A stretch of 32,895 bases of DNA from an uncultured Hyphomicrobiales bacterium (GTDB lineage Bacteria; Pseudomonadota; Alphaproteobacteria; Rhizobiales; Beijerinckiaceae). A model generated the notes under the pieces. The model saw nothing but the letters and a program-made list of their open reading frames with translations, was not told the origin of the DNA and ran no database searches. The stretch lies in NCBI GenBank assembly GCA_903931945.1, contig CAIZEI010000093.1, positions 1 to 32,895 on the forward strand. The letters are read 5' to 3'. Of this stretch, positions 4,961 through 25,559 are shown piece after piece. Numbering within the stretch: the first letter of the stretch is position 1; each line of letters begins with the position of its first letter. A program made the position numbers and the translations under genes.

Positions 4961-5072
4961 TGCGCTTGCCAAAGCCATGGCGTACAGGCAATCTCGAAAG
5001 TGCAGTAAGGGCTCAAAAAATGCCCGCCGGAGTGAAATCCAGCACAAATTACTCCCAACCCAGGATAGCGTC

Positions 5073-11136: not shown

Positions 11137-12282
11137 TCATATCGCCTTGCCATACATGCGATAGCGCTTCACCGGCGGCCCCGCGCACATCTCGCACAGG
11201 CGCGCCATCGGCTTGTTGCCTTCAAGCACCCAACTGAATTCCGCCCAGTCATATTTGCCTGCGGCCTGAATTTTGATCTCATTGGTCAACAGCGCCACCA
11301 TGGCCCCGGCATGGGCGGTGCCTTGCACCGATTTGCGAATGCCCATGAAGATCACACGTCCCGAGCGAAAGCGATCTGTAACCAACGCATAGACGAGTTT
11401 CGCCCAGTTGAACGGCAGCAATTTGCCGCCGAAGTGCAGCAAGGGTTCGTTGTAATTGGGCATGAACACCATAAAGCCAACTTCAACGCCATCGAGCAGC
11501 ACAAACCGGCAGAACTGGCCGCGCACAAACCGCACGAACTCGCCGAGCATCGCCATGATTTCATCCGCGCTCAAGGGTATAAAACCCCAGTTCTCGCTCC
11601 AGGAATCGTTGAAGATATCGCACAACAGCGCAGCTTCTTCGGCTTTCCGCTTCATGTCTGGCGAGCGCAAAGTCAGATGCGTATTGGCCTTTGCGAATTC
11701 GGTCAATTTTTTGGCGCGCGGACTGATTTTTTCAGGATCGACGCGAAAGGCCAGCAGATCGGTTTCCTTGGCAAACCCGGCGCGCTCCAGCAATGCCCCA
11801 GTCCAGGGTCGCGCCTGCGTCATGAAGAGCGCGGGCGGGGTGTCGAAACCCTCGACCTGCAATCCGCATTCCTCATTGATAGAGAGGTTGAACGGCCCGA
11901 CCATTTTGACGCTGCCGCGCGCGCGCAACCAGTCTGCGCCAGCAGCGACAAGGGCGTCGGCGGCTTCCTGATCGTCGAGACAGTCGAAAAAGCCGAAATG
12001 CCCGGCCCCATCCTTGTGGACTTCGAGATGACGCCTGTTGATCTGTGCGCTGATCCGTCCGACAGGCTTGCCGTCGCGCGTGGCGACGAACAGCTGAGCC
12101 TCTCCAAATTTGAAGAACGGCCCTTTTTCCTTCGACAGGCGATCCTTGTCCATGACCAGCAATGGCGGCACCCAGGTGGGATCGTCGCCGTGAACGATAT
12201 AGGGCACCTGCAAAAAAAGATCGCGCCCGGCGGTATCTGTGACAGGCGTGACAACCAAAAATCCGGGGATTGAAGGCGTCAC
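11137..12282 (-). CDS. GNAT-fold acyltransferase, candidate bacterial ceramide synthase
   Basis: The GTG start (12282-12280) overlaps the TGA of the ketoacyl synthase gene (GTGA), so translation is coupled. The 381-residue protein lacks a signal peptide. It shows a GNAT-like N-terminal segment (FVATRDGKPVGRISAQINRR, about residues 65-84) and a second GNAT-like half with FVLLDGVEVGFMVF (about residues 260-275), i.e. a tandem acyltransferase. In Caulobacter, as I recall, the bacterial ceramide synthase bCerS is a GNAT-type protein encoded near serine palmitoyltransferase. Position and size here suggest the same job: transferring a fatty acyl group to the amine of the long-chain base. The fold is fairly sure; the ceramide role is inferred from context. 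Confidence 0.72.
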   Translation of the reverse strand: MTPSIPGFLVVTPVTDTAGRDLFLQVPYIVHGDDPTWVPPLLVMDKDRLSKEKGPFFKFGEAQLFVATRDGKPVGRISAQINRRHLEVHKDGAGHFGFFDCLDDQEAADALVAAGADWLRARGSVKMVGPFNLSINEECGLQVEGFDTPPALFMTQARPWTGALLERAGFAKETDLLAFRVDPEKISPRAKKLTEFAKANTHLTLRSPDMKRKAEEAALLCDIFNDSWSENWGFIPLSADEIMAMLGEFVRFVRGQFCRFVLLDGVEVGFMVFMPNYNEPLLHFGGKLLPFNWAKLVYALVTDRFRSGRVIFMGIRKSVQGTAHAGAMVALLTNEIKIQAAGKYDWAEFSWVLEGNKPMARLCEMCAGPPVKRYRMYGKAI

Positions 12283-13535
12283 AGGTTCACATCCGCCCGT
12301 GTCAGCGCCAGCGTCACATTCAAACCGCCAAAAGCGAACGAGTTGGACAACACCGCTTCGGGGTTAACCTTGCGCGGCCCTTCGGGAATGGCGTCAATCG
12401 GGCAATCGGGGTCCGGCTCAAGATAATTGAGAGTTGGCGGCGCAATTCCGGATTCAAGCGTCGCAATCGCCGCCACCAGCTCCAGCGCGCCCGAGGCGCC
12501 CATGGCGTGACCGATGGACGATTTAATCGTTGAGACCGGAAGCTTGTCGGTTGCTGCGCCAAACACCTCGCGGATCGCCTGGGCCTCCAGACGGTCATTG
12601 ATCTGAGTCCCGGTGCCATGCGCATTGATATAGCCGATGCGTTCGGGCGTCAGACCCGAATCGCGCAGCGCTGCGTGCAGCGCCCGCACCATGCCCCGCC
12701 CATCCGGGGTTGTCAGATCACCCGCGTCGCTGGTCATCCCGCCGCCGGCAAGACGCGCAAGCGCGGGCGCGCCGCGCGCCCGGGCGTGGTCCGTCGTTTC
12801 GAGGACAAACATCGCTGCCCCCTCGCCGATGCTCATGCCAAGTCGGCCTTTCGAAAAGGGTCGGCAGATATCGGTGGTCACCACGCGCAGAGCATCCCAG
12901 GCGCGCAGATAGCCAAAATCGTAACAGGCGTCGGAGCCGCCAACGAGCGCGACATCGGCGAGCCCACTTCGCAGCATCATCACGCCCATCAAAATCGCAT
13001 GGGCCGCCGAGGCGCAGGCGCTCGATGTCGCGAAAACCGGCCCGTGCGCGCCGGTTTCGCGTGCAATCCGGCTGGATGCGCCGCTCGCCATGGTCATCGG
13101 AATGGTGAGCGGAACGGGTTTGCGCCCTTCCAGCAAGATGCGCTGCCATCCCTGGCCAACCGATTCATTGCCAGCGTTAGCCGTGCCCACAATGACCGCA
13201 ATCCGGTCCGCGACAGGGGGCGCGACATCGAAACCTGCCTCTTTCCACGCCTGCCGGGCGGCAACCGCCGCAAATTGCGAAAATCGGTCAAGACCCGCCA
13301 GCACGCGCGGTTCAAAATGCTGCGTCGGGTCGAACCCGATCACCGGGGCTCCGCGCGTGAAGCGCAACTTGAGGCCCGCCATGAATTCAGGAGGCAAGTT
13401 CAGTTCGCGCCCGTTTTCATCAAACGGCTTTATATGTCCCTCGCCTGCCAGAATTGCATTTTGAAACGCCGCGACATCCAGACCGGCGCATGAAACGACG
13501 CCGCGTCCGGTAATTTCAACCCATGGCGACGCCAT
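12279..13535 (-). CDS. Beta-ketoacyl-ACP synthase, FabF/KAS II type
   Basis: The 418-residue enzyme condenses acyl groups with malonyl-ACP. The complete Cys-His-His set is visible: Cys174 in SSACASA, His306 in NAHGTGTQIND, and Lys338/His343 in KSSIGHAMGASG, so it should be active. It starts two bases after the stop of the ACP gene and overlaps the GNAT gene, forming a three-gene operon. Housekeeping fabF usually sits with fabG/acpP; here it sits with a dedicated ACP and opposite a serine palmitoyltransferase-type gene. A specialised role in supplying a long acyl chain for lipid synthesis is therefore likely. Polyketide or capsule-anchor synthesis is an alternative. Confidence 0.92.
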   Translation of the reverse strand: MASPWVEITGRGVVSCAGLDVAAFQNAILAGEGHIKPFDENGRELNLPPEFMAGLKLRFTRGAPVIGFDPTQHFEPRVLAGLDRFSQFAAVAARQAWKEAGFDVAPPVADRIAVIVGTANAGNESVGQGWQRILLEGRKPVPLTIPMTMASGASSRIARETGAHGPVFATSSACASAAHAILMGVMMLRSGLADVALVGGSDACYDFGYLRAWDALRVVTTDICRPFSKGRLGMSIGEGAAMFVLETTDHARARGAPALARLAGGGMTSDAGDLTTPDGRGMVRALHAALRDSGLTPERIGYINAHGTGTQINDRLEAQAIREVFGAATDKLPVSTIKSSIGHAMGASGALELVAAIATLESGIAPPTLNYLEPDPDCPIDAIPEGPRKVNPEAVLSNSFAFGGLNVTLALTRADVNL

Positions 13536-13537
13536 TG

Positions 13538-13798
13538 CTAGGCCTGACCGGCAGCAGGAATAAAGGCCGCCAACGCGCGAACAAAATCGCCGACAGTGTC
13601 GAACTTTGAGTCCTGAGGCAGATCGATCGTTGTCTCGAATTCTTCCTCGACCTTGAAAACAACATGTATCACATCGATCGAATCGATTTTCACTGCCGCA
13701 ATCGGAGTGTCCATGTCGAATTCGACCGACTTGTCCTGAATCTCGGAATGAATGAAACTCAGAATTTTCGTATAAATTTGTTCGTTGTCACTGGCCAC
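13538..13798 (-). CDS. Dedicated acyl carrier protein
   Basis: The 86-residue acidic protein has the four-helix ACP pattern with the phosphopantetheine attachment Ser40 in KIDSIDVIHV (the usual DSL written DSI). Helix II is followed by the acidic EEEF patch that docks partner enzymes. It starts at GTG 13798 with GGGG six bases upstream and is the first gene of the ACP-ketoacyl synthase-GNAT operon. As a non-housekeeping ACP next to a serine palmitoyltransferase-type gene it matches the arrangement known in Caulobacter and Sphingomonas, where the acyl donor for the first sphingolipid step is carried on a special ACP. Confidence 0.92.
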   Translation of the reverse strand: MASDNEQIYTKILSFIHSEIQDKSVEFDMDTPIAAVKIDSIDVIHVVFKVEEEFETTIDLPQDSKFDTVGDFVRALAAFIPAAGQA

Positions 13799-14172
13799 GC
13801 GAAACCCCGTTTCTCAGAACTCTGATCATGGCGCCGGAACAGCAGGCAACGTCATTGACATGCGCCGCCCCATGCGAAACCCCGGCACTGGTATAGGGGA
13901 GTTGCATCGGCGCGGCAACTTGCCGCAAAGACGCCTTTCGTCAGGCCGGCCAGCGCGCGCGAGGGCCGCATTGTCTGGCAATCCAGCGAAAGAAGCCGAT
14001 ATTTGCGGCAAACTCGACAAACCTGATCGCGTGCGCGGTGAACCCGACCGTTTGCCTTCGCGATGCGGATATGAAATGTGTAACTCAAATGTCATAGCAG
14101 CCTTGTCCCGTCGGAATAACCGTAGCCTTATCCAGGCGGCGCCCGCCGGACTTGTCCCAAACGGAATGCCTC
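13799..14172. other. Divergent intergenic region between the ACP operon and the Spt gene
   Basis: These 374 bases separate two divergent lipid transcription units and must hold both promoters. No well-spaced -35/-10 pair could be named with confidence. A CTTGTCCC word occurs twice (about 14102 and 14151) ahead of the Spt gene, and a small GC palindrome lies between the copies. No gene is supported; the short frames on both strands are unconvincing. Confidence 0.4.
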
Positions 14173-15402
14173 GTGTCTGAAGATCGAAACAGTCTCGAAA
14201 CCTATGCGCAGCGTTGGATAAGGCTCGGCAATCTTGACCGGCTTGCTATTTACAATCCCTACTTCGCCCCCATCGATACGATGGCGGCGGCGCGACAAGC
14301 CAACGGCGAGAGACTGGTCAGCTTCGCTCATTATGATTATCTCGGCCTTTCTCGTCATCCTGAGATCGCAGAAGCCGCCTGTTCCGCCATCAGGACAATA
14401 GGCGCTGGCGTCGGGGCCTCACGGCTGGTCGGCGGAGAGCGCTCCACGCACAGGGCCTTTGAATTGGCGATCGCCGACTTTCTTGGCTGCGGCGACGCGC
14501 TGGCGTTGGTCAGCGGCTATGGAACAAATGTCTCCCTCCTCGGCCATCTGCTTGGCGGCGGCGACGCCATCGTCATCGACGAGCTCTCTCACAATAGCAT
14601 TGTGTCGGGGTCGGAGCTGTCGCGCGCCAAAACCCTGACCTTTCCACATAACGATATGGATGCGCTGGAAAAGCTGCTCGAAGAGCGGCGCGGCGAATTC
14701 GGTCGCGTTCTGATTGTGATCGAAGGCCTGTACAGCATGGATGGCGACATCCCTGACCTGCCAAGGGCCCTCGAAATCCGCGACCGCTTCAATGCCTGGC
14801 TTATGGTGGACGAAGCCCATTCCATTGGCGTGCTCGGCGCCACGGGGCGGGGCGTGGCTGAACACTATGGCATTGAGCCCGCGCGCATCGATCTGATCAT
14901 CGGCACTCTGTCCAAGACCTTTGTCTCGAGCGGCGGTTTCATCGCCGGAGGCAAGACGGTCATGGAATGGTTGCGTTACACCCTGCCCGGCTTCGTTTAT
15001 AGCGTCGGGCTGGCGCCGCCTGTGACGGCTGCGGCCCACGCCGCGCTGAAAATTCTTCGGCGCGAGCCCGAGCGAATCGCGAAAATGCGCGATATCACCG
15101 GTTTTTTTGTGCGTCGTGCCCGCGAAGAAGGCCTTGATGTCGGCGACGCAATCGGAGCAGCCGTCGTGCCGCTCATGTGCGCGGATACGATCAAAACAGT
15201 GCTTTTGTCGCGCGCCCTGCTGGAACGTGGCTATTATGTGCCGCCGATCGTCCAGACCGGCGTGCCAAAAAACAAGCCACGGTTGCGATTCTTTTTCTCC
15301 GCAAGCCACGAACGCAGCGACGTTGAAGGCGTCATCGCGGCCATATGCGACGCGCAGTCATCCAAAAATGACGCCGCTGCCGCCATGTTCGCACGCGGTT
15401 GA
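14173..15402 (+). CDS. spt: Alpha-oxoamine synthase, probable serine palmitoyltransferase
   Basis: This PLP enzyme of the alpha-oxoamine synthase family would condense serine with an acyl thioester to 3-ketosphinganine, the committed step of sphingolipid synthesis. With the GTG at 14173 (GGA seven bases upstream; TTG 14152 is an alternative) it has 409 residues. The PLP-stacking His140 is in DELSHNS, Asp213/His216 are in MVDEAHSIG, and the Schiff-base Lys248 is in GTLSKTF. Glycine C-acetyltransferase (kbl) and BioF share these motifs, but no threonine or biotin genes are nearby. The divergent ACP/ketoacyl synthase/GNAT operon and the downstream sphingolipid genes favour serine palmitoyltransferase. 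RkpG of rhizobial capsule synthesis belongs to the same family and is the main alternative. Confidence 0.85.
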   Translation: MSEDRNSLETYAQRWIRLGNLDRLAIYNPYFAPIDTMAAARQANGERLVSFAHYDYLGLSRHPEIAEAACSAIRTIGAGVGASRLVGGERSTHRAFELAIADFLGCGDALALVSGYGTNVSLLGHLLGGGDAIVIDELSHNSIVSGSELSRAKTLTFPHNDMDALEKLLEERRGEFGRVLIVIEGLYSMDGDIPDLPRALEIRDRFNAWLMVDEAHSIGVLGATGRGVAEHYGIEPARIDLIIGTLSKTFVSSGGFIAGGKTVMEWLRYTLPGFVYSVGLAPPVTAAAHAALKILRREPERIAKMRDITGFFVRRAREEGLDVGDAIGAAVVPLMCADTIKTVLLSRALLERGYYVPPIVQTGVPKNKPRLRFFFSASHERSDVEGVIAAICDAQSSKNDAAAAMFARG

Positions 15403-15411
15403 TTGCATGCT

Positions 15412-15431
15412 CTATTCGGGTCCCCGAATAG
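15412..15431 (+). terminator. Perfect 9-bp hairpin just after the Spt gene
   Basis: CTATTCGGG-TC-CCCGAATAG starts nine bases after the stop codon. The stem is strong but no T-run follows, so it may act as a transcript-end stabiliser or a Rho-assisted terminator rather than a classical one. Confidence 0.5.
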
Positions 15432-15450
15432 CCAAAGCCGCAGCTATCTG

Positions 15451-15464
15451 TTAACACATGTTAA
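15451..15464. promoter_or_regulatory. Operator-like palindrome upstream of the export lipoprotein gene
   Basis: TTAACA-CA-TGTTAA is a perfect 6+6 inverted repeat with a two-base centre in an otherwise GC-rich region, about 200-250 bases before the polysaccharide-export gene. The size and symmetry fit a helix-turn-helix dimer site. The regulator is not identified. Confidence 0.4.
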
Positions 15465-15698
15465 TCACATTCGTAGGTTTTTACGTATCGGAGCTATGGT
15501 TCCGGAGCGAAACGCGCGAATGGGTGGTATCCTTTCGGCGCGGGCTTGGGGGGCAGGTTGTTGCGTCGCGGTAACAGGTTTCGGGAATATCTCCGGACCG
15601 GCGACTGCTGGCGCCAGCTTGCTTGACGCGGAGGGGAAAGCCCGGCCACTACTGCCGGTGTAGTGGAACGATTTATAAGGCAAAGCAGGGGCCGTGAC

Positions 15699-16868
15699 TT
15701 GAAGGTTTCAGGAATTCGTCTCGCGTTCGCTGGCGTTGTGTCCATGCTGCTGGCTGGATGTTCCGCGTTGCCCTCGCAGGGTCCCCTCGCCAATGAGGTG
15801 GTCAGCGGGGCGACTGCGGCAGATGGCGAGGCCCGTTACGCGATCATCGAATTGACCGAACGAGTGCAGGATCTTCTCTCGCGCGTTGGCGCCGTTTCGC
15901 TGGCCTCGCGATTCGGCGATCACCGGGCGACGCCTGAGCCAGTGATTGGCATCGGCGATCAGCTCGCCGTGACCGTCTGGGAAGCAGCCGCCGGCGGACT
16001 TTTCTCCGCCCCCAGTTTTGGAGGCGTCACTGCCGGCGCCCATTCTGCACAAATTCCCCCGCAAAATGTGCCAGGCGATGGCTCGATCACGGTGCCCTAC
16101 GCGGGTCGTGTCCGGGTTGCCGGACTGACGGCGCGGCAGATTGAACGCGCGATTGTCGAACGTCTGAAGGACAAGGCTATCGAGCCGCAGGCGCTTGTCA
16201 CGATCACCCAAAGCATCAGCAATTCAGTCACCGTGACAGGCGAAGTTACAGCTGGCGCGCGGGTGCCGCTCACCGGTCGGGGCGACAAGGTTCTGGACAT
16301 CATTGCAAGCGTTGGCGGCGTCCGCGTTCCAGTCCATGATACTTTCATTACCCTGAACCGGGGCAACGCATCGGTTTCCGTGCCGATGCAATCCCTGCTC
16401 GATCATCCGGCCGAAAACATCTTCGTTCGCCCTGGCGATGTCATCACCCTGGTCGGCAGACCGCAGTGGTTCTCGGTCTTTGGCGCGACGGGACGCAATT
16501 TTGTCATTCCTTTCGATGCGGCTGGCATGACCCTCGCCGAGGGCATCGCCAAAGCGGGCGGTCTGCTCGACATGGGCGCCGACCCCGAGGGCGTCTTCCT
16601 GATGCGACCGGAACCTGCCTCCATCGTCAGCCAGCTCGATCCGACTTATCCGATCGCACCGGGCCAGACGAGCGTCAATGTGATCTACCGCGCCAATATG
16701 CGAGACGCGAACACCTATTTCATCGCGCGCAAATTCGCCCTTCGCCATCAGGACATCCTGTATGTCGCAGGTTCGGAAGCCAATCAGTTGCAAAAGGCCC
16801 TTACTGTTATCAACGCCGGCTCTCAGGCGGTTTACAATGTGGCGGTATCGAAACCCTACCTGAAATAA
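15699..16868 (+). CDS. Outer-membrane polysaccharide export lipoprotein, Wza/KpsD-like
   Basis: The protein has a lipoprotein signal peptide with lipobox LLAGC. The TTG at 15699 (AGGGG upstream; Cys21) is preferred, and a GTG at 15663 would add 12 residues. The polysaccharide export domain follows (GDQLAVTVWEAA ... GDGSITVPYAGRVRVAGLT), then SLBB-type repeats (VTGEVTAGARVPL and FGATGRNFVIPFDAAG). This is the architecture of the octameric outer-membrane channel for capsule or exopolysaccharide. No Wzc kinase, Wzx/Wzy or ABC exporter is adjacent, so it is an orphan here. A strong hairpin follows its stop. The secretion partner may be elsewhere in the genome. Confidence 0.87.
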   Translation: MKVSGIRLAFAGVVSMLLAGCSALPSQGPLANEVVSGATAADGEARYAIIELTERVQDLLSRVGAVSLASRFGDHRATPEPVIGIGDQLAVTVWEAAAGGLFSAPSFGGVTAGAHSAQIPPQNVPGDGSITVPYAGRVRVAGLTARQIERAIVERLKDKAIEPQALVTITQSISNSVTVTGEVTAGARVPLTGRGDKVLDIIASVGGVRVPVHDTFITLNRGNASVSVPMQSLLDHPAENIFVRPGDVITLVGRPQWFSVFGATGRNFVIPFDAAGMTLAEGIAKAGGLLDMGADPEGVFLMRPEPASIVSQLDPTYPIAPGQTSVNVIYRANMRDANTYFIARKFALRHQDILYVAGSEANQLQKALTVINAGSQAVYNVAVSKPYLK

Positions 16869-16878
16869 TGCCAAAGGC

Positions 16879-16911
16879 AATTCCAGCAGAACATCAACTT
16901 CTGCTGGAATT
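16879..16911 (+). terminator. Perfect 13-bp hairpin after the export lipoprotein gene
   Basis: AATTCCAGCAGAA (16879-16891) and TTCTGCTGGAATT (16899-16911) form an uninterrupted 13-bp stem with a 7-base loop, ten bases after the stop. No T-run follows directly. It lies between two convergent genes and could mark transcript ends in either direction. The rest of the spacer to 17045 is AT-rich with nothing recognised. Confidence 0.6.
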
Positions 16912-17045
16912 ATCGCCATATCAAATACTTACAGATATTTCTTACGCAAGCCTGCGAGCCGCCGGGGCAGCCTGTGTGAATATCTGCGCAAACTCCCATA
17001 AACGTTTGATTTTAAATAATTTTATATAAGAAATTTGGAAAGTCG

Positions 17046-17915
17046 TCATCGCCAGGGAGCGAAAGCGTCAATCGCCCGGCGATCATTTTCGCCAGACTTG
17101 TTCGGCCCGTCGGTCAAGGCGGACACATAGGCCGCGCGGGATTCGATGGGCAGGCTGCGCGCTGGAATGACCCGACGGGGGACGCCCCGCCGCATCAAAT
17201 GGCCCGATATCCAGACATCGTCAACCCAACGCATTTCCGGGATTTCCTTAGAAAAATCATGCACAGCGGCATCGAGACTGCCGGGCGGAACAAGGTAGCC
17301 CCAGGTGCCGAACAGAATATCGACATCGCGCGGGCGCCGGAGCGCGGTCGCAAATTCATGGTCGAGGTCGCGAATATCGCATCCGGCGCGCAATCGCCAA
17401 CCGCGATGGCCCAGCGCCGCCAGCGGATCGGCCCGGTGCGCAGTCAAAAGAGTCTCTATGAAATCGTGAGGGTAAATCACGTCGTCATCGACAACGATGA
17501 TGACCGCCCCCGGTTCGTCGAGGAGCGCTGGCAGCAATTTGGTCGCCGGGCCCAGATCCTCGCAACGAATCACATCGACGGAATCCGGCAAATCCGCCGG
17601 CGCCGGGTAAGCCGCTCCGGTTCGCAAGGATACGCGGGGCCAGGCCAGCACGATCCGGTCCGCTGGACAGGTCTGATCCACAAGACTGCGCAAGGCCGGA
17701 GCAATCTGGCTGGCGCGATCGGGAATTGAGGTCATGCTTACCACTATGCGTTCAGCGCGGATTTCCGGCGCCCGCCCGCCAACAGGCTCACGCCGAAGCT
17801 GGCGCGCGCGCCAAACATCGCGCGCCACCCCTCCGGGCGTGAGGTAGCGATATCGAATCAGAGCGTTGCGCAGATTGCGCCGGGCCAAAAACGCCCACCG
17901 CCCAAAATCGGCCAT
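17046..17915 (-). CDS. GT-A-fold glycosyltransferase
   Basis: The 289-residue protein has no membrane helix. After a basic N-terminus comes the glycosyltransferase opening IVVSMTSIPDRASQIAPALR (about residues 57-76) and the metal/nucleotide-binding acidic cluster VVDDDVIYPHDF (about residues 140-151). A likely acceptor-side acidic pair lies in RWVDDVWISG (about residues 229-238). It resembles short GT2-like enzymes of surface polysaccharide loci. Donor and acceptor are unknown. It is convergent with the Wza-like gene and divergent from the CDP-alcohol phosphotransferase gene, so it could serve either a polysaccharide or the glycolipid proposed for the next region. Confidence 0.75.
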   Translation of the reverse strand: MADFGRWAFLARRNLRNALIRYRYLTPGGVARDVWRARQLRREPVGGRAPEIRAERIVVSMTSIPDRASQIAPALRSLVDQTCPADRIVLAWPRVSLRTGAAYPAPADLPDSVDVIRCEDLGPATKLLPALLDEPGAVIIVVDDDVIYPHDFIETLLTAHRADPLAALGHRGWRLRAGCDIRDLDHEFATALRRPRDVDILFGTWGYLVPPGSLDAAVHDFSKEIPEMRWVDDVWISGHLMRRGVPRRVIPARSLPIESRAAYVSALTDGPNKSGENDRRAIDAFAPWR

Positions 17916-18216: not shown

Positions 18217-18864
18217 TTGATCGACGATAGTTTTGCGAAAAGCGTGCAACAGCGCTTCCATGCGGTCGTCGGACGTGGCGCCGATTGGCTCAACCAGCGG
18301 GGCGTCCAGCCCAATACGCTGACGTGGCTGTCGCTCGCGCCAGCCATCGCCTCATTTATCGCCACCGCGCATGGATACTTGATTGCGGCCGTTGCGATGA
18401 TGGCGCTGAGCGGGGTTTGCGATCTCCTGGATGGGCCGATGGCGCGACGAAGCGAACGAACAACGTTGTTCGGCGCCCTGCTCGATTCGACTCTCGATCG
18501 TTTCGCCGATGCCGCGCCGCTGCTGGGACTGGTCTATTATTACGGCGGCTACCCGCTCGCGGCCCTGATCTGCGCGCTATCCGCATTTTCGGGCTATACG
18601 GTTTCTTATGTGCGCGCCCGCGCAGAAGGGCTTCAGATTGCGCTGCCCTGGCTCTGGATGCGGCGAACGGAGAGGCTGGTTTTGACAGGCGTCGGGTTGC
18701 TCCTTTCACCCATCGCGATCCCCGCCCTTGGCGTCCCTGCGCCGGTTACGCTGACCTTTGTGCTCCTGAACGGCGTCCTTGCCCTTGTCGCGGCGTTTCA
18801 CGCGCTGATGCTGGCGGAAAGGATCACAACGCAGTCAAACCAAACCCGATCAGACGGACAATGA
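18217..18864 (+). CDS. CDP-alcohol phosphotransferase, probable phosphatidylinositol-phosphate synthase
   Basis: This polytopic membrane enzyme replaces the CMP of CDP-diacylglycerol with an alcohol phosphate. The full family motif DxxDGxxARx8GxxxDxxxD is present (Asp69, Asp72, Gly73, Ala76, Arg77, Gly86, Asp90, Asp94). Downstream, SYVRARAEGL (130-139) and RRTERLVL match the pattern I know from actinobacterial PIP synthases and archaetidylinositol-phosphate synthases rather than PgsA or PssA. It starts with TTG, with GGGAG about seven bases upstream. Its 3' end overlaps pgpA antisense by 41 bases. With myo-inositol-phosphate synthase and a phosphatase nearby, it probably makes phosphatidylinositol phosphate. 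Confidence 0.8.
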   Translation: MIDDSFAKSVQQRFHAVVGRGADWLNQRGVQPNTLTWLSLAPAIASFIATAHGYLIAAVAMMALSGVCDLLDGPMARRSERTTLFGALLDSTLDRFADAAPLLGLVYYYGGYPLAALICALSAFSGYTVSYVRARAEGLQIALPWLWMRRTERLVLTGVGLLLSPIAIPALGVPAPVTLTFVLLNGVLALVAAFHALMLAERITTQSNQTRSDGQ

Positions 18865-19285
18865 GACCGGCAACAACACCGGCGGCGATATCGTCCATCA
18901 TGATTCCGGCGCCCGCGGGCCGCAATCTCTCAAGAGCGCCGATGGGCCCTGGTTTGAAAATATCGAACACGCGAAACAACACGACGCCAAGCGCGTCCAT
19001 CCACAGATTGGCGCCTGCGCCAATCCAGAGCGCCAGCAGCACGCCTGCCGCCTCGTCGATCACTACAATCTGCGGGTCTTTTTCCGCGCGTGCGTCAGAC
19101 ACTTTCTGCGCGGCCCAAAATCCGGTCACACACACCAGCGCCGTCGCCAGAGGCGTCGCGGCGGGGGGCGCAAATTTCAGCGCCCAGAACAGCGGCAAAG
19201 CGGCAATCGAGCCAACGGTTCCCGGCGCGCGCGGCGATAATCCCGCGCCGAACCATGTCGCCAAAACAAATGCAATTTTATTCAT
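18824..19285 (-). CDS. pgpA: PgpA-family lipid phosphatase
   Basis: The 153-residue membrane protein shows the PgpA hallmarks: WFGAGLSPRAPGTVGS near residues 11-26, the acidic DPQIVVIDEAAG (70-81), and FRVFDIFKP followed by GIMMDDIAAG. PgpA normally dephosphorylates phosphatidylglycerophosphate. Here it is convergent and overlapping with a probable phosphatidylinositol-phosphate synthase and divergent from an Aur1-like gene by 24 bases, so phosphatidylinositol phosphate is an equally likely substrate. In Bacteroides, as I recall, a PgpA-type enzyme fills that role. The family call is firm, the substrate inferred. The start has GGAG six to seven bases upstream. Confidence 0.93.
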   Translation of the reverse strand: MNKIAFVLATWFGAGLSPRAPGTVGSIAALPLFWALKFAPPAATPLATALVCVTGFWAAQKVSDARAEKDPQIVVIDEAAGVLLALWIGAGANLWMDALGVVLFRVFDIFKPGPIGALERLRPAGAGIMMDDIAAGVVAGLIVRLIGFGLTAL

Positions 19286-19309
19286 CGCCGCTCCGAACAG
19301 ACTGTCGCC

Positions 19310-20257
19310 ATGACCCAGATAGAACGCCCGCAGGCGACGCCCCGCACCTATTTACATGAAATCCGGCAGCCCGGTTGGCCTGTCGTGCTGGTCACACTCG
19401 CTTATGTCGATGTTATCGCCTTGATCGGCGATTTGCGACCGGAACATATCGCTGTGGCCTGTCTGATCGCCGCAGGATGGCTGGCGGCCAATGGCTTCCG
19501 CATTGCGATTCGCGCAAGCGCGCCGATTGTCCTCGTCATCATCGGATTCGATTCATTGCGTTATCTGCGACCGCTGTTCGTGACAGCCGGGCGCATTCAT
19601 GGCTGCGATCTGCGCGGGGTGGAACTGGCGTTGTTTGGCGTCGCGCCCGACACGACAATCGCCGATTATTTCAATATCCATCACTCGCCCGGCTTCGACC
19701 TGTTTTTTGCAATCCCCTATGCAGCCTTTATCTATGTCGCCATCCTGTATGGCGCGACGATGTATTTCCGTGACCGCAAACGCGTGCGCCCCGGCGTCTG
19801 GGCGTACGCTTTCATCTATCTGATCGCATTTACCTGCTGGATGGCGTTTCCAGCTGCGCCGCCCTGGTACATTCAGGCCCATGGCTGCGTCATCGACCCC
19901 GGCGCAGGACCGAGCGCCGCCGCCCTCATGCGAGTCGATGCGGCGCTGGGAATTCATTACTTTGAAGGCTTTTACGGTCGCGGCCCGACGGCCTTTGGCG
20001 CCATGCCGTCGGTCCACAACGCCTATCCCATGCTGACGCTGCTGGTTTTCTGGCCCATTGCCGGCTGGAAAGAGCGGGTCGCAAGTATCCTCTATGCGCT
20101 GTGGATGATCTGCGCGAGCCTCTATCTCGACCACCACTGGCTGATCGATGGCTTCGCGGGGTGGGCTACGGCGGCGCTTGGCGTCATTTTCGCGCGCCTG
20201 TTTGTCAGCCGGGCGGCGCCAAACGATCGTGCGATCGGAAAAACTGCGGCTTCCTGA
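19310..20257 (+). CDS. Aur1-like inositol phosphorylceramide synthase (PAP2 superfamily)
   Basis: The 315-residue polytopic membrane protein shares with fungal Aur1 a series of motifs in the same order: FPAAPPWY (180-187; Aur1 FPCSPPWY), RVDAALG (208-214; RIDALFG), FGAMPSVH (229-236; FGAFPSLH) and LYLDHHWLID (271-280; MYLTHHYFVD). The PAP2-type catalytic residues are His236, His275/276 and Asp280. Aur1 transfers phosphoinositol from phosphatidylinositol to ceramide. Ordinary PAP2 phosphatases lack the PPWY and RVDA elements. The neighbours supply both substrates in principle. The ribosome site is weak. It starts 24 bases from the divergent pgpA start and is followed 89 bases later by the DES1-like desaturase. 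Confidence 0.86.
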   Translation: MTQIERPQATPRTYLHEIRQPGWPVVLVTLAYVDVIALIGDLRPEHIAVACLIAAGWLAANGFRIAIRASAPIVLVIIGFDSLRYLRPLFVTAGRIHGCDLRGVELALFGVAPDTTIADYFNIHHSPGFDLFFAIPYAAFIYVAILYGATMYFRDRKRVRPGVWAYAFIYLIAFTCWMAFPAAPPWYIQAHGCVIDPGAGPSAAALMRVDAALGIHYFEGFYGRGPTAFGAMPSVHNAYPMLTLLVFWPIAGWKERVASILYALWMICASLYLDHHWLIDGFAGWATAALGVIFARLFVSRAAPNDRAIGKTAAS

Positions 20258-20346
20258 CGCATGCCGGCGACGCCGTTCCTCTCTCCGCGCTTCATGTTAT
20301 AGATGCGCGACGCGCCCATGTATGGGGGCTCTGAACTGGACAGGCG

Positions 20347-21306
20347 ATGGCAGAGGATTTCATTCGGCAGGCAGGCGTCGATCCGCACCGTGAACGCGCG
20401 CCCACGATTCTTGCCGCCCATCCGAACGTGCGCAACCTGATCGGGCGCAATCCCTGGACCGCCGTAATCGGGCTGGCGATTGTGGTGGTTCAGGCGGCCG
20501 CTGCGATTGCGATAGGCCGTCTATGGCCTGGCGGATGGTGGCAACCGATCCTCGCGGCGGCGCTTTTTGGCGCCTTTGCCAATCACGCCCTGTATGTGGT
20601 GGTTCATGACGCGACTCATGGAGTCGTCTTCAAAAGCCCCTGGGGCAACAGACTTGTGCTTGTGTTGGCCGACCTGCCAAATATCTTGCCTGGTTCGATG
20701 GCCTTCCGGGGCTATCACCTCCTGCATCACTCCGGGCGCAGCCAGTATTTCGGCGATCCCGATATTCCCAGCGAATGGGAAGCCCGCCTCGTGCGCAACA
20801 TCTGGTGGCGCAAGGCGCTCTGGCTGGTGGTCTTTCCCTTTTTGCAGGCGACACGCGTCGGGCGGGTTCCGGCAGTGCCTTTGCTCGATGGCTGGGCGCT
20901 AGGGAATTACGCGGCGAATTTTTTATTCGCCGCAGCAATTTACGCCGTCGCCGGCTGGCCCGCGCTCATCTACCTGTTTGCGTCATTCTGGTTTGCAACA
21001 GGGCCGCATCCGCTCGGCATCCGCTGGATATCCGAACATTATGTGCTCGGTCCGGGACACGACACCAACAGTTACTACGGCCCGATAAACTGGATCGCGT
21101 TGAATATCGGCTATCACAACGAGCATCACGATTTTCCGCGAATTCCGTGGAACCGGTTGCCGGAGCTCAAAGCCATGGCGCCGGAATATTACAATACGTT
21201 GCCAGCCCACCATTCGTGGATCCGCCTGTTTTGCGAATTCATTTTCGATGGTCGCTACTGGCTGTTCTCGCGCGTTGTGCGCCCCGATATTCAGGCGGCG
21301 GAATAG
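20347..21306 (+). CDS. DES1-like sphingolipid desaturase/hydroxylase
   Basis: This 319-residue membrane di-iron enzyme has three histidine boxes: HDATH (87-91), HLLHH (124-128) and HNEHH (257-261). Beyond the boxes, the C-terminal half matches eukaryotic dihydroceramide delta-4 desaturase as I know it: GPHPLGIRWISEHY (219-232), SYYGPINWIALNIGYHNEHH and EYYNTLPAHHSWI. The N-terminal HPNVRNLIGRNP also fits that family's Lipid_DES segment. It would introduce a double bond or hydroxyl at C4 of the sphingoid base. General acyl-lipid desaturases do not share the SYYGP-GYHNEHHDFP block. It follows the Aur1-like gene on the same strand. Activity (desaturase versus hydroxylase) cannot be predicted. 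Confidence 0.88.
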   Translation: MAEDFIRQAGVDPHRERAPTILAAHPNVRNLIGRNPWTAVIGLAIVVVQAAAAIAIGRLWPGGWWQPILAAALFGAFANHALYVVVHDATHGVVFKSPWGNRLVLVLADLPNILPGSMAFRGYHLLHHSGRSQYFGDPDIPSEWEARLVRNIWWRKALWLVVFPFLQATRVGRVPAVPLLDGWALGNYAANFLFAAAIYAVAGWPALIYLFASFWFATGPHPLGIRWISEHYVLGPGHDTNSYYGPINWIALNIGYHNEHHDFPRIPWNRLPELKAMAPEYYNTLPAHHSWIRLFCEFIFDGRYWLFSRVVRPDIQAAE

Positions 21307-21396
21307 GCGGGCGCCTGCGTCCGGAGAATGAAAAACGAAAAAATCGGGCTGCGCTCCCGGCGCGTCCGATGTCCAATCATTCGAAACCAAAAGACA

Positions 21397-22473
21397 TTAT
21401 TCGCCGCGAATGAACTTCTCGGTCAGCGCGCGCGCCTCATGCTCGACAAATTGCTGCGGCGGCGATTTCATCAGATAGCTGGACGGCCCTGTCAAAGCGC
21501 CGCCAATCTTGCGGTCCAGCGCCAGTTTGGCGCAGCGCACGGCGTCCACGACAACACCAGCAGCGTTTGGCGAATCCCAGACTTCCAGCTTCATGTCGAT
21601 GCTGATGGGCGATCCGCCAAAACCCGTTCCCTCCATCCGGATATGAGCGAATTTGCGATCTTCCAGCCAAGGCACAAAATCGCTGGGACCGATGTGAATA
21701 TCGTTGGCCGGCAGCGGTTCATCCAGTTGGCTGTTGACGGACTGTGTCTTGGAGATCTTCTTGGATTTCAGGCGCTCGCGGTCAAGCATGTTCAAAAAGT
21801 CTGTGTTGCCGCCGAAGTTCAACTGATAGGTGCGATCCAGCCTTACGCCCCTTTGCCGGAACAAGGACGCCAGCACGCGATGCACAATGGTCGCGCCAAC
21901 CTGACTTTTGATATCGTCGCCCACGATCGGCAGATTGGCGGCTTCAAACTTCTTGCGCCATTTTGCGTTTGAAGCGAGAAAGACCGGAATGCAATTCACG
22001 TAGGCGCAGCCTGCCTTGATCGCCTCTTCAGCATAAAACTCGCTCGCCTGCTGCGAGCCGACCGGCAGATAGGACACGACCACATCAGCCCGCGATTTGC
22101 GAATTTCTGTCGCAATATCAACAGGCGGCTCTGACGATTCGGAAAACTGTTTACTAAGATGGCGGCCGAGGCCATCCAGCGTTACGCCGCGCTGCACCTT
22201 GACCCCCGTCGGGGCCACCTTGGCGAATTGCAAGGTATTGTTTGGCTCAACCAGTATAGCGTCTGCGACATCAAGGCCCACTTTTCCGGCATGCACGTCA
22301 AACGCAGCGCAAATATCAATGGAATCAATCCGGTAACCACCAATTTCCTCGTGCATGACGCCAGGGGCTGGCGCGTTGCCGGCGCCATTGTAATAATAGG
22401 TCAGGCCCTGAACAAGCGATGACGCACAGTTTCCGACGCCAACCAGCGCAACTCTTATTCGTTTTTCCGTCAC
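21397..22473 (-). CDS. ino1: Myo-inositol-1-phosphate synthase, actinobacterial type
   Basis: This NAD-dependent cytoplasmic enzyme converts glucose 6-phosphate to inositol 3-phosphate, the head-group precursor. The Rossmann glycine motif is at the start ([16 protein letters not shown]). Further conserved stretches are PVQRG-like [61 protein letters not shown] and LMKSPPQQ, all matching the mycobacterial Ino1 pattern. The GTG at 22473 is preferred because GGGGG lies seven bases upstream and the product (358 residues) then begins as in the family; in-frame starts up to 22614 add an unlikely N-terminus. It is divergent from the glycosyltransferase gene at 22617. Confidence 0.93.
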
Positions 22474-22616
22474 GCCAAGGCCCCCGATTGCCGCCCGCAT
22501 GAGGAGGACGGTCAACATACAAATGAATCGAAAACATCGGCAAACGCGCCGATCTTGCAGCATATGAGGTTCTGCTCTAATCCCCCCGTGAGGCGTGGTC
22601 AATAGGGACAGCATCC

Positions 22617-23786
22617 GTGAGCTCAGGCCCGACTGGACGCCCGCAATCGTTAAAACGTATCGCTTTGGTCAGCGATTGGTATCTGCCTCGACTCGGCGGA
22701 ATCGAATGGCATGTCGCCGATCTCGCGGCGGCCCTGTCCGACAAGGGATGCGATGTCACAATTTTGACAACGACCCCTGACCCATCGCCGTCTTCGATCC
22801 AGCGAGCGAATGGCGCGTTCAGAATCGACCGTATCGATACGCTGCGCGCGCCCCGGTTCGGATTTTCCATCTCGCCACGACTCGCTGAGCTGTTGACCCG
22901 TCGATTGCAAGCCGGAGATTTTCAACTGGTGCACGTGCATGCCAGCGTGATTTCGCCACTGGCGTTGGCGGCGGTCATCGCCGCACGCCGGCTCAATTTA
23001 CCAGCGGTTGTGACATTTCATTCCATGTTGCTCAGAGCTGCCGGAGTCCTGCGCTGGGCGGATCGTCGCTGGAGCTGGTCCTCGAGACCGATCCTCTGGA
23101 CGGCGGTCAGCGATGCGGTTGCCGCGCAGGCAAGCGGGGCTCTGGGCGGCGCGCCCGTGCAGACCCTGAGCAATGGCGTGTATCTGGAAAACTGGCCGGA
23201 ACGGCCCCGACCGAAGGGCGCGCCGGATCGGCGCATCGTGATTGCAACCGCCATGCGTCTGACGCGGAAAAAACGGCCCCTGGAGCTTCTCGATGCGTTC
23301 TGGATCGCCCGGGATATCGCCAGCGCGCACGGTTGCGATCTGGAATTGCGCATCGCCGGAGAAGGTCCGCTCCGCGCAAAAATGGAGCGTATGATTCAAT
23401 CCGCCGGAGCAGGAAACTCCGTTTTTCTGTTGGGCGCCCTGCCCCGCAACGCCTTGCAGGAGCTCTACGCAGGAAGCGATATTTTCATCATGCCCTCGAC
23501 GCGTGAATCCTTCGGGCTGGCGGCGCTGGAAGCCCGCGCCAGCGGTCTGCCTGTGGTCGCGATGGCGGGCACGGGAACGCAAGACTTTCTCATCGATGGC
23601 AAAACGGGTTTGCTCGCGCAGACCGACCGCGGTCTGGCGTCCCAGCTTGCAAGACTCGCCCTGGACGCGGACCTGCGCGCCCGGCTCTCCCCGCGCGATA
23701 CCGGCATTGCGCGCTTTAACTGGCCGAAGGTCGCCGATCGCCACCCTGAAGCCTATGAACAGGCGCGCATCCTGACCGCCCCATAA
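22617..23786 (+). CDS. GT4 glycosyltransferase, PIG-A/PimB-like
   Basis: The 389-residue GT-B protein begins [19 protein letters not shown] (residues 15-33), the acceptor-side opening shared by PIG-A and phosphatidylinositol mannosyltransferases. It has the donor-site Rossmann half with [14 protein letters not shown] (214-227), IAGEGPLR, and the catalytic EX7E pair Glu297/Glu305 (ESFGLAALE). No membrane span is seen, so it probably works at the inner face of the membrane. It is divergent from ino1 and convergent with the flippase gene. Context suggests adding a sugar to an inositol lipid, but GT4 enzymes use many acceptors, and the donor (GlcNAc, mannose or other) is unknown. The start is GTG with AGGGA eight bases upstream. 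Confidence 0.85.
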
Positions 23787-23823
23787 CCTCAAGCATCTCG
23801 TGTCTTGATGGAACGCGAAAATG

Positions 23824-24816
23824 CTAGGCGCTGTTCCGTTTTGCGGAATAGCTCCAGGGCGGCCACAGGATCAGCGCGCCAAGGCCAGGCAGGACGGAAG
23901 CTGCGAGATAAGCGGCATGTTGCAGCAGCGCCAGCGCCAGCGCGAGTTCCGGCGCGATCCCGGTTTGCGTATAGGCAAAGACTACAGACGCTTCATAAAT
24001 GCCAAGATTGCCCGGCGGCCCCGGGATGACTGTCGACAAAGCGATCGCGGCAACCACAAGAATCGCCGCCTCGGGCGAAGGCGCAACGCCGCAAGCGCGC
24101 ATGATGCAAAGCGCGGCAAAACCTTCGGTGGATTTGCGCGCCGCGTAAAGCGCCAGTGCAAGGCCAACTTTATGCGGCGCGCGGACGGCGGCCAGATGCC
24201 CCGCAAGATCTGCAAAGCCGAGCAGCGCACGTCCCATCCAGCCTTTTTGGCGCAGGGAAAAACGCCGCACGAAACCATGCGAAAACGAGACGCCCGTCAA
24301 CAGGCCAACGAATACAAGCACTGCGGGCAGCAAGATCGCCGCAGCGGTCCGCATGAACGAAGGCGCCGGCGAAAAAATCAGTGCGGCAAGGATGAGAATG
24401 ACTTTCACAGCGCCGGTCAGCGCCTGATCCAGAGCAACGATTGTCGCTGCGACAGCGGCGCTCACTTGCGCCCGCCGAACCAGCATCACGACAGCGACAA
24501 CGCCGCCGCCGAGAATGGACAATGTCTGAATCGCAGCCAGCGTCACCGCTTGCGTTTCGAGCAAGCGCATCGGGGGCGGCGGAATCGGCGTCAGCGCGCG
24601 CCAGGCGAAATACCACAGCGGCATCGCAACGAGGTTGCAGCCAAAGGCCGCCAGAACCCAGATCAGACTGGCTTGCGCGACCGCCGCGTCGACGGCAGCC
24701 CAATCAAGCGATCGTGCGAGATAACTGACACCGAATGCGCCTGCCGCCCAGATGGCGACCCAGACAACAGCTGCGCGCCAGTCCAGTTTGAAGCCCGACT
24801 TTGGCGGCGTTGTCAC
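23824..24816 (-). CDS. Lysylphosphatidylglycerol-synthase-TM/flippase-like membrane protein
   Basis: The GTG start (24816-24814) overlaps the stop of the deacetylase gene (GTGA), so the two are translationally coupled. The 330-residue product has about eight hydrophobic helices and the UPF0104/AglD-type ending VIPGPPGNLGIYEASVV (a PGxxGxxE motif), with no cytoplasmic catalytic domain. Such free-standing MprF-like domains are thought to translocate lipids or support glycosyl transfer. Beside a glycosyltransferase and a deacetylase, a role in flipping or presenting a glycolipid is plausible. Longer upstream starts would only overlap the deacetylase gene. Confidence 0.8.
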   Translation of the reverse strand: MTTPPKSGFKLDWRAAVVWVAIWAAGAFGVSYLARSLDWAAVDAAVAQASLIWVLAAFGCNLVAMPLWYFAWRALTPIPPPPMRLLETQAVTLAAIQTLSILGGGVVAVVMLVRRAQVSAAVAATIVALDQALTGAVKVILILAALIFSPAPSFMRTAAAILLPAVLVFVGLLTGVSFSHGFVRRFSLRQKGWMGRALLGFADLAGHLAAVRAPHKVGLALALYAARKSTEGFAALCIMRACGVAPSPEAAILVVAAIALSTVIPGPPGNLGIYEASVVFAYTQTGIAPELALALALLQHAAYLAASVLPGLGALILWPPWSYSAKRNSA

Positions 24817-25559
24817 GCCGCAGCGCCCGCAGGCAGGAGGTCGCGCATACGGCGGAATCGCGCGCCGCGCGACCTGAACAGACGGATCACAGCCTGCATA
24901 TCTGATAGCGCGGGGTCGCCGGTGCGAAAACGGCAATCCAGACGCAAATTGGTGTTCCGCCAGTCGACATATTCCCATGGGTGGCAGAACAGCACCACCG
25001 GACCCCGCAGCCGCGACAACCAGCGGTCGCGGATGAACGCGGGCAGGCGCAGCACGCTCGAGGTCACAGACGCCGGGATGCGCGTCAGACGGGTTGGCCC
25101 ATCGGGTGAAAAATGCTTCGCCTTGTATTTTGCCTGCGAGGAATCCAGCGCAAATCCTTCATCTTCGAGCAACCCCAGATATTCGGCTGGAAACATCAGA
25201 TTGGGCGCGCGAAAGGAGACAATCTCGCCAAACTCCCGCAGCACTTTTGCGGATTCGGCAATTTCGCCGCGCGCATCATTCCGGTCAAGAGCCGGAAACG
25301 GCCGGTGCGTCATGCCGTGTGAGGCAAGCTCATGACCGTCAACGACAACCCGCGCGGCGACATCCGGCGAATGGCGAGCGCTGTCGCCAGTTATAAAGCA
25401 GGTCGTTTTGACGCCCTCGGACGCAAACAGATCAAGCAGCCGCGGCGCGCCCTCCTCCATACCGCGCCAGGTCCACAGATAGGGCGGACAATCGGGCTCC
25501 ATATCGACGGTGATGCACACGTCGAGGGGAATTGGCGCTGATTGCCTGTGAGTTGACAT
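24813..25559 (-). CDS. Polysaccharide deacetylase, NodB domain
   Basis: The 248-residue protein without a signal peptide has the NodB-type motifs: TVDMEPD with the catalytic Asp and metal Asp/Glu (18-23), HELASHGMTH with His81 and His85, FRAPN (116-120), and HPWEYVDW near residue 175 supplying the late His. This branch resembles cytoplasmic deacetylases of surface-glycan loci rather than secreted chitin deacetylases. It is coupled to the flippase-like gene and lies next to a PIG-A-like glycosyltransferase. Removing an acetyl group from an N-acetyl-hexosamine on a lipid head group is an attractive but unproven role. PIG-L-type motifs are absent. Confidence 0.86.
   Translation of the reverse strand: MSTHRQSAPIPLDVCITVDMEPDCPPYLWTWRGMEEGAPRLLDLFASEGVKTTCFITGDSARHSPDVAARVVVDGHELASHGMTHRPFPALDRNDARGEIAESAKVLREFGEIVSFRAPNLMFPAEYLGLLEDEGFALDSSQAKYKAKHFSPDGPTRLTRIPASVTSSVLRLPAFIRDRWLSRLRGPVVLFCHPWEYVDWRNTNLRLDCRFRTGDPALSDMQAVIRLFRSRGARFRRMRDLLPAGAAA

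Follow-up and report, generated by a model that had tools for sequence, protein, structure and literature searches.

The DNA analysed here (the window) is a 32,895-nucleotide contig from an uncultured Hyphomicrobiales bacterium, and positions 11137-25559 of it (~14.4 kb) hold 14 genes on alternating strands, each an open frame with a matching family or close homologue. We consider it probable that this block is a sphingolipid biosynthesis cluster, making an inositol phosphoceramide (IPC) that is desaturated, glycosylated and flipped. Inositol-headed sphingolipids are membrane lipids best known from fungi and plants. The parts of this reading differ in strength: formation of IPC from a bacterial ceramide pathway is likely, a delta-4-desaturated base is likely as well, and a glycosylated headgroup of the glucosamine (GlcN) type is plausible. 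An earlier, first-pass annotation of this DNA had proposed a near-complete gene set from serine to IPC. This set is indeed present, with a bacterial ceramide synthase (bCerS) homologue, a myo-inositol-1-phosphate synthase (MIPS), a phosphatidylinositol phosphate (PIP) synthase, a PgpA-type phosphatase, an Aur1-like synthase and a DES-type desaturase, while the ketone reduction step is missing from the window.

The genes, their families and motifs and their conserved linkage are seen directly; substrates, order of steps, glycosylation and flipping are deduced from them. In the proposed pathway, a dedicated acyl carrier protein (ACP) and a ketoacyl-ACP synthase (KAS) would supply an acyl thioester, which the alpha-oxoamine synthase would condense with serine; a reductase encoded outside the block would then reduce the ketone. 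The resulting base would be N-acylated to ceramide by the YghO-type enzyme, and the DES-type enzyme would add a delta-4 double bond (or a hydroxyl). In parallel, MIPS would generate inositol phosphate, from which the CDP-alcohol transferase would form PIP, to be dephosphorylated to phosphatidylinositol (PI) by the PgpA-type enzyme. Transfer of phosphoinositol from PI to ceramide by the Aur1-like enzyme would yield IPC. Finally, the glycosyltransferases GT4 and GT2 would add sugars to the inositol headgroup, the NodB-type enzyme would de-acetylate one of these sugars, and the LPG_synthase_TM (LPG_TM) protein would flip the lipid.

The inositol arm resembles that of Bacteroides (BT_1522-1526), where, in the available text of PMC9246714 and PMC8791184, an Aur1-like synthase, a CDP-alcohol PIP synthase, a PgpA-type PIP phosphatase and a MIPS are likewise found together; an LPG-synthase-annotated neighbour, homologous to BT_1521, is also nearby in both. 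In B. thetaiotaomicron, the roles of BT_1522, BT_1523, BT_1525 and BT_1526 were shown by deletion according to the accessible part of PMC9246714, which reports no lipid phenotype for BT_1524; the accessible part of PMC8791184 describes BT_1525 as not deletable and a BT_1524 mutant with less IPC. The CDP-alcohol motif in the window PIP synthase is the one used for BT_1523 (PMC9246714, available text). A GtrA-like protein (BT_1524) was not found among the window open reading frames (ORFs) scanned, the rest of the genome not having been searched. As far as these sources describe it, the Bacteroides operon is without ceramide genes, a DES-type desaturase, GT4/GT2 or NodB, whereas the window has them.

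A family profile (A1) built from 22 relatives of the Aur1-like protein retrieved only AUR1 chains from the PDB at E<=1 (best E 1.6e-28). The desaturase carries an N-terminal Lipid_DES and an FA_desaturase domain, both above cut-off, and its third histidine box, HNEHHDFP, presumably resembles that of DES1. Its predicted action is insertion of a delta-4 double bond, or else C4-hydroxylation; it had no PDB match at E<=0.1. The first-pass annotation had named membership of the Aur1-like and DES1-like proteins in unrelated families as the result that would speak against it; profiles and domains agree that this is not the case. Searches of plasmids with the Aur1-like and DES queries returned no match.

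On the ceramide side, what had been described as a GNAT candidate ceramide synthase is borne out as a homologue of the bacterial ceramide synthase YghO of E. coli BL21 (38% identity; E 3e-83 for that single comparison). YghO and CC_1154 are listed as products of the acyltransferase gene (aca) required for dihydroceramide in the available portion of PMC9386255, and in BL21 YghO adjoins spt, acp, epimerase and fatty acyl-AMP ligase genes. ACPs adjoining a KAS in relatives of the window are 58-80% identical to the window ACP, which gave no BLAST match to BL21 AcpR.

The alpha-oxoamine synthase was earlier called a serine palmitoyltransferase (SPT)-type enzyme with its own ACP and KAS. These genes are present, and its best PDB match is an SPT (3a2b/8guh, 219.1 bits, followed by SPTLC2 with 204.6 and KBL with 203.3), but family models score it differently, as discussed below. 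Its own genome has 12 aminotransferase-family places, three of which align with it at E<1e-40: itself, bioF (39%) and hemA (32%). BioF identity for 14152-15402 was rejected, the genome's own bioF lying elsewhere beside bioB and bioD. Two trees were built, with SgaB (see below) and Caulobacter Spt in neither. In the first (18 rows), the clade of ten cluster rows that holds the window enzyme is supported (99/98), with the deep order open (43/20); in the second (26 rows), the window enzyme falls in a 19-row clade (100/98) with oxoamine synthases that neighbour a polyketide synthase (PKS), separate from the SPTs of BL21, the relative G098 (our labels: G, genomes; L, loci; C, contigs of the window's own genome) and S. 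multivorum. The PKS-neighbouring synthases come from Pseudomonas, Shinella and Paraburkholderia plasmids, where they adjoin large multidomain genes annotated as type I PKS. A further clade member, on S. meliloti pSymB, has a neighbour annotated as a short-chain dehydrogenase/reductase (SDR), yet this neighbour is 39% identical to a PKS on contig C104 over 1,164 aa; we take these pSymB genes to be rkpA-G-H. No type I PKS was found beside the window synthase among the ORFs scanned. SgaB, a PKS-partnered oxoamine synthase of Pseudomonas fluorescens, has demonstrated SPT activity and uses serine (PMC12134224, available text), and we infer that it belongs to the same clade. SPT function of the window synthase would follow from this likely tested relative together with the recurrent bCerS partner. 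On an Acidisoma plasmid, a bCerS homologue (36% to YghO), an SDR and an oxoamine synthase of the same kind lie side by side.

As a separate observation, six close relatives of the window synthase (P0271, P0282, P0296, P0329, P0333 and P0334; 53-58% identity) occur in Rhodobacter, Methylocella, Beijerinckia, Stappia and Methylocapsa. P0296 bears the name 8-amino-7-oxononanoate synthase and the others that of an aminotransferase class I/II; they may be SPTs that have gone unrecognised.

The linkage of these genes was followed in other genomes by searching GTDB species genomes with the Aur1-like profile and keeping the loci of the best 80 of 136 relatives. By title, 15 were taken as alphaproteobacterial (L037, 'Proteobacteria bacterium isolate PHREA1', was included by name; L021 and L045 reveal little because of their short length), and the remaining 65 are mostly Myxococcota. 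Counting matches of at least 50 bits within the fetched flanks, the 15 loci hold MIPS, PIP synthase and LPG_TM in 12 cases each, bCerS, GT4 and GT2 in 11 each and NodB in 10; PgpA (6), KAS and SPT (4 each), DES (3) and Poly_export (1) are rarer. In the other 65, PIP synthase (41), PgpA (26), SDR (4), ABC ATPase (3) and MIPS (2) were found, and bCerS, GT4, GT2, NodB, LPG_TM, SPT, KAS and DES were all absent at this threshold (E<=1e-4 gives a weak GT4 in two). The decoration genes therefore belong with the alphaproteobacterial form.

All 14 genes recur in L020, from an uncultured Rhizobiales metagenome-assembled genome (MAG), with order and orientation kept and identities of 53-87%. None of the seven window flanking genes tried has a match there, its own neighbours being Aldolase_II and DHDPS genes; the conserved block therefore ends near the limits first proposed. 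L024 (Hyphomicrobiales) has one run in another order: PgpA, GT2, NodB, LPG_TM, GT4, PIP synthase, Aur1-like, SDR, SPT, bCerS, ACP, KAS, MaoC and MIPS. In L027 (2-14997, a Stellaceae MAG), a type I PKS with AT, DH, ER-like, KR and ACP domains immediately precedes the oxoamine synthase, after which come bCerS, SDR, Aur1-like, GT4, LPG_TM, PIP synthase and DES; no MIPS, NodB or GT2 match was found in this locus, which is possibly a polyketide-derived inositol sphingolipid cluster. On the single 4,494,445-base contig of G055, 20 kb hold Spt, MaoC, KAS, ACP, two LptF/G-like genes, bCerS, PgpA, ABC ATPase, MIPS, an epimerase (28% to BL21 CerR), GT4, LPG_TM, GT2, PIP synthase, Aur1-like and, by tblastn, NodB, with DES elsewhere in the genome; bCerS, MIPS and the Aur1-like gene are each found once, together within 11.3 kb. 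The single contig of G098 has, in 19 kb, an SDR adjoining Spt, together with ACP, KAS, bCerS, PgpA, MIPS, PIP synthase, Aur1-like, GT4, GT2, NodB and a flippase-like gene, with no DES at E<=1e-60. In both of these genomes, the Spt falls with that of BL21 in the tree and keeps the company of KAS, ACP and bCerS, as the other SPT type does in the window. In G225, the fetched 20 kb contain ABC, MIPS, epimerase, GT4, LPG_TM, NodB, PIP synthase and Aur1-like genes. The earlier description of a neighbourhood rather than an operon is apt for the alternating strands, but L020, L024, G055 and G098 reveal a conserved cluster, which is more than a neighbourhood.

Among relatives of the same genus, G009, G011, G022, G024 and G031 have ACP, KAS, bCerS, SDR and SPT genes near each other. 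G022, G024 and G031 carry bCerS and DES, but no Aur1-like or MIPS match, so a desaturated ceramide without inositol is predicted for them. Genus relatives recorded as loci L159, L161 and L169 show the ceramide gene group with a DES-type desaturase elsewhere and no Aur1-like or MIPS match; they are predicted, from gene content, to make delta-4-ceramides with another headgroup.

The Aur1-like gene is rare and patchy in distribution. With E<=1e-40, 90% completeness required and at most five candidates scored per genome, 397 genomes sampled from the order gave 11 that carry it (the window's own and ten belonging to a single family, f20), and 387 sampled from the class gave just the window's own. 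In a set of 61 genomes, three have the Aur1-like gene, 12 bCerS (one weak match, G035, dropped before testing), 13 MIPS and seven DES at E<1e-100 (14 at E<=1e-3, the seven weak matches being dropped as other desaturases). All three Aur1-like genomes have bCerS, MIPS and DES, and six of the seven DES genomes have bCerS. One-sided Fisher values, which ignore kinship, were 5e-5 with and 2.6e-4 without the own genome for DES-bCerS, 0.005 and 0.025 for Aur1-bCerS, and 0.008 and 0.037 for Aur1-MIPS. In a further comparison, DES is present in 9 of 12 Aur1-like-positive genomes and in 5 of 28 hand-picked negatives, three of which were already known DES carriers.

Several observations weigh against the proposed pathway. 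The Aur1-like protein scores 123.6 bits with NF052609 against a cut-off of 480, which makes it related but a non-member by that model. The co-occurrence that the first-pass annotation had suggested looking for, complete for MIPS and DES in the 61 genomes, is broken by the 3 of 12 Aur1-like-positive genomes from which DES is absent, and the Aur1-like gene is missing from 35 of the 37 genus members searched, many of which are incomplete genomes. The fetched stretch of G225 has no bCerS, SPT or PgpA match. The SPT-type enzyme falls under every NCBIfam SPT cut-off and scores highest with the bioF model, at 335 bits against a cut-off of 426. Outside the window clade, the nearest row is, with weak support (76/87), the BioF of the same genome. 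At least 120 database relatives of this enzyme are mostly unnamed; those with names are called 8-amino-7-oxononanoate synthase, aminotransferase or the like, and none SPT among those listed. Also, the window ORFs that were scanned include neither a 3-ketosphinganine nor a ceramide reductase, while several relatives have an SDR in the cluster. With BL21 queries, the best match to CerR in the own genome is a 24% epimerase at one place on another contig, and AasR gives six partial matches of 27-36%, none convincing. We have slightly lowered our confidence in the statement as a whole because the clade placement of SgaB is indirect and the G225 stretch has no ceramide genes.

For the ketone reduction, an epimerase and a ligase on contig C136, reached by the BL21 queries, were rejected as CerR and AasR; we take the former to be NDUFA9-like and the latter malonyl-CoA-synthetase-like. 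Of three own-genome SDRs set against those of the clusters (on C104, C158 and C191, the best among 21 matches), that of C104 was nearest to the L027 SDR (45%, fork 84/85), and it is the best own-genome reductase candidate, though a candidate only. The SDRs of G009 and G011 stand apart from those of L024, L027, G022, G024 and G031 (100/100), so the cluster reductase is not one group. On C104 (L170, 1185-6558), the SDR is accompanied by a second CDP-alcohol phosphatidyltransferase and by a type I PKS that the contig end truncates; the stretch resembles a fragment of a PKS-type sphingolipid or capsule-lipid locus, with no oxoamine synthase on that short contig. As the genome yielded no other oxoamine synthase, our guess is that the C104 PKS and SDR perhaps feed the window synthase.

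As for the headgroup, the GT4 protein was previously called PIG-A-like, a label to be corrected: its nearest PDB match is PimA (68.9 bits), then BshA (58.2) and 3c48/3c4q (53.8; presumably MshA), all low scores. A glycosylated and deacetylated headgroup had also been proposed, and GT4, GT2 and NodB families are present, but their roles are read from family and neighbourhood. A competing explanation, which we find unlikely but take seriously, is that IPC is made while GT4, GT2, NodB and the flippase-like and Wza-like proteins serve a separate surface glycan (capsule or exopolysaccharide, EPS), the sphingolipid being unglycosylated or a mere anchor. The Poly_export/SLBB gene inside the block would suit such a role, NodB and GT4 match XrtA/EPS models (all below cut-off), and related plasmid oxoamine synthases lie in or beside capsule genes. 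It is at odds with the alphaproteobacterial Aur1-like loci, where GT4, GT2, NodB and LPG_TM recur at the frequencies given above and a Wza-like gene is found in 1 of 15 (L020 only), and the window ORFs scanned showed no full polysaccharide locus. We also considered, and rejected, reading the entire block as such a locus. Headgroup decoration stays our preferred reading, and its fullest version, which we put forward tentatively and at less than even confidence, is a glycosyl inositol phosphoceramide (GIPC) on a delta-4 base, carrying N-acetylglucosamine (GlcNAc) that then becomes GlcN. This would combine bacterial ceramide synthesis with Aur1-, DES- and glycosylphosphatidylinositol (GPI)-like steps; LPG_TM would flip the lipid and, in relatives, a second Lpt-like machine would bring it to the outer leaflet, partnering or replacing lipopolysaccharide. 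LptF/G-like permeases are found in related clusters at L048 11468-14548 (by Pfam, with an ABC ATPase adjoining), L156 4786-7214 and L197 6242-8589 (by BLAST to those of L048), which suggests export machinery reserved for the sphingolipid; the window block showed no such permease.

It is improbable, in our estimate, that the oxoamine synthase uses a non-serine amino acid or yields another N-acyl amino lipid, with the inositol genes leading to PI or glycosyl-PI only and the Aur1-like enzyme having another acceptor. Sub-threshold SPT scores and a clade distinct from the BL21, G098 and S. multivorum SPTs would fit this, and the PAP2_3 family is functionally broad. Yet the bCerS homologue is adjacent and recurs in relatives, an Spt of the BL21 type has the same partners in G055 and G098, profile A1 retrieves AUR1 only, and PKS-partnered SgaB, although outside the trees, uses serine (PMC12134224, available text). 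A chance neighbourhood of unrelated lipid and envelope genes, to which the alternating strands and the many genus members without the Aur1-like gene might point, is barely credible and is contradicted by conservation of the cluster in other genomes, re-arranged yet clustered in several lineages and tight in G055.

Every gene listed in the first-pass annotation was recovered as an open frame with a family or close homologue, and two block genes were missing from that list, the Poly_export/SLBB and the GT2-like gene (Table 1). Pfam matches above cut-off comprise KAS, ACP, Aminotran_1_2, CDP-OH_P_transf, PgpA, PAP2_3, FA_desaturase with Lipid_DES, Inos-1-P_synth, the GT4 group, LPG_synthase_TM and Polysacc_deac_1. 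The listed LPG_TM frame reaches 24978; codon scoring favours the shorter form in the table, which overlaps NodB by 4 bp as in L020.

Table 1. Genes of the block, with window coordinates
Gene product	Position	Strand	Family and motif evidence
bCerS/YghO-family ceramide synthase homologue	11137..12282	-	38% over 363 aa to E. coli BL21 YghO; no Pfam match
FabF-like beta-ketoacyl-ACP synthase (KAS)	12279..13535	-	PF00109/PF02801; Cys, His, Lys/His motifs
Dedicated ACP	13538..13798	-	PF00550 24.3 bits (cut-off 20.8); DSI site
SPT-type alpha-oxoamine synthase	14152..15402 (start uncertain, perhaps 14173)	+	PF00155
Wza-like polysaccharide export protein	15663..16868	+	PF02563, SLBB
GT2-like glycosyltransferase	17046..17915	-	PF00535 22.0 bits, under cut-off 23.3; DDD motif
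PIP synthase-like CDP-alcohol phosphatidyltransferase	18217..18864	+	PF01066 56.4 bits; D-x2-DG-x2-AR...G-x3-D-x3-D motif at 18421-18498
PgpA-type phosphatase, candidate PIP phosphatase	18824..19285	-	PF04608 134.8 bits
Aur1-like inositol phosphorylceramide synthase	19310..20257	+	PF14378 PAP2_3 69 bits; PSVH, DHHWLID motifs
DES-type sphingolipid desaturase	20347..21306	+	PF00487 94 bits; PF08557 Lipid_DES 29.8 bits (cut-off 23); HDATH, HLLHH, HNEHH boxes
Myo-inositol-1-phosphate synthase (MIPS)	21397..22614 (true start probably inside 405-aa frame)	-	PF01658 128.9 bits; TIGR03450 504.8 bits (cut-off 638)
GT4 glycosyltransferase, candidate headgroup glycosyltransferase	22617..23786	+	PF00534, PF13439; E-x7-E motif
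Flippase-like LPG_synthase_TM membrane protein	23824..24816	-	PF03706 94.6 bits
NodB-type polysaccharide deacetylase, candidate headgroup deacetylase	24813..25559	-	PF01522 57.6 bits; TVDME, HGMTH motifs

The block is flanked by chromosomal genes of an ordinary kind: a parC-like subunit, recO, an MFS protein, an alpha/beta hydrolase and a FrsA-like hydrolase on its left side, and glnE, a subunit of the gyrB/parE type and a truncated glutamine synthetase on its right. Measured per kb, GC content spans 56-64% inside the block and 50-63% beside it. The window makes up all of contig C93 in a genome of 5.03 Mb (203 contigs, 98.5% complete, 4.8% contamination), whose nearest named loci come from Rhizobiales MAGs. 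An assembly artefact was ruled out, the same cluster occurring in a separately named MAG and the window Aur1-like protein being listed on 7 contigs, the longest of 56,610. Outside the block, a frame of 553-585 aa at 4977-6734 (+) scores well on codon usage and matches neither Pfam nor NCBIfam models.

With the ceramide systems of Caulobacter and E. coli BL21 (spt, acpR, cerR, aasR, bcerS), the window shares the bCerS homologue, a dedicated ACP and an SPT-type enzyme (PMC9386255 and PMC11324152, available text). It differs in that its SPT-type enzyme stands apart from the BL21 Spt clade, its KAS lies beside the ACP and its genome has no close CerR or AasR. It also has inositol headgroup genes in place of those for CPG and CPG2, which have a phosphoglycerate headgroup. 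The ceramide region of Caulobacter crescentus includes LptC2/F2/G2 and a potential flippase gene (PMC11324152, available text); LptF/G-like genes also lie in the related L047, L048, G055 and G098 clusters. Like the SgaAB system for polyketide-type sphingolipids in P. fluorescens (PMC12134224, available text), the window has a synthase of the PKS-neighbouring group, but an ACP and KAS adjoin it, not a type I PKS, the PKS and SDR being on C104. Ceramide phosphoinositol has been reported in Myxococcus xanthus (as cited in the accessible part of PMC9246714). The mostly Myxococcota loci resemble the window in joining Aur1-like genes with PIP synthase (41/65) and PgpA (26/65), but, at the 50-bit threshold, their fetched flanks give no match to SPT, bCerS, KAS, DES, GT4, GT2, NodB or LPG_TM. 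Eukaryotic GIPC and GPI pathways use Aur1, DES1 and PIG-A, and the GPI deacetylase is PIG-L. The window parallels these with its Aur1-type synthase, DES-domain desaturase, GT4 nearest to PimA (an inositol-lipid glycosyltransferase; low score) and deacetylase, the latter NodB-type instead. The earlier label 'eukaryote-like' fits the Aur1 and DES steps only; the SPT, the ACP, the KAS and the ceramide synthase are of bacterial kinds.

The first-pass annotation knew of no described alphaproteobacterial pathway of this kind. Among the papers listed by full-text searches, none dealt with such a cluster or with a bacterial DES-type sphingolipid desaturase; one search was poorly aimed and subscription papers were mostly outside the coverage, which makes this weak evidence of absence. 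On the other side, the inositol module is proven in B. thetaiotaomicron, and the alphaproteobacterium Novosphingobium acidiphilum has a lipid consistent with phosphoinositol dihydroceramide, though without homologues of these genes (PMC9246714, available text). By its gene content, the window inositol module resembles the already known BT_1522-1526, and the union of ceramide, DES, inositol and decoration genes looks like a new variant.

The block is, then, a candidate bacterial cluster uniting ceramide synthesis, DES-type desaturation, inositol transfer and probable headgroup glycosylation. More broadly, a bCerS gene next to an oxoamine synthase of the PKS type may be a sign of sphingolipid production in bacteria overlooked by classical SPT searches. 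Because related bacteria keep many of the same genes together, the pathway is testable, and the existence of delta-4-desaturated or glycosylated inositol sphingolipids in bacteria becomes testable in relatives (Phreatobacter). If the reading is true, inositol sphingolipids with a gene-level pathway would extend to Rhizobiales-type bacteria, and a GlcN-type glycosyl inositol phosphoceramide would be a bacterial counterpart of plant and fungal GIPCs.

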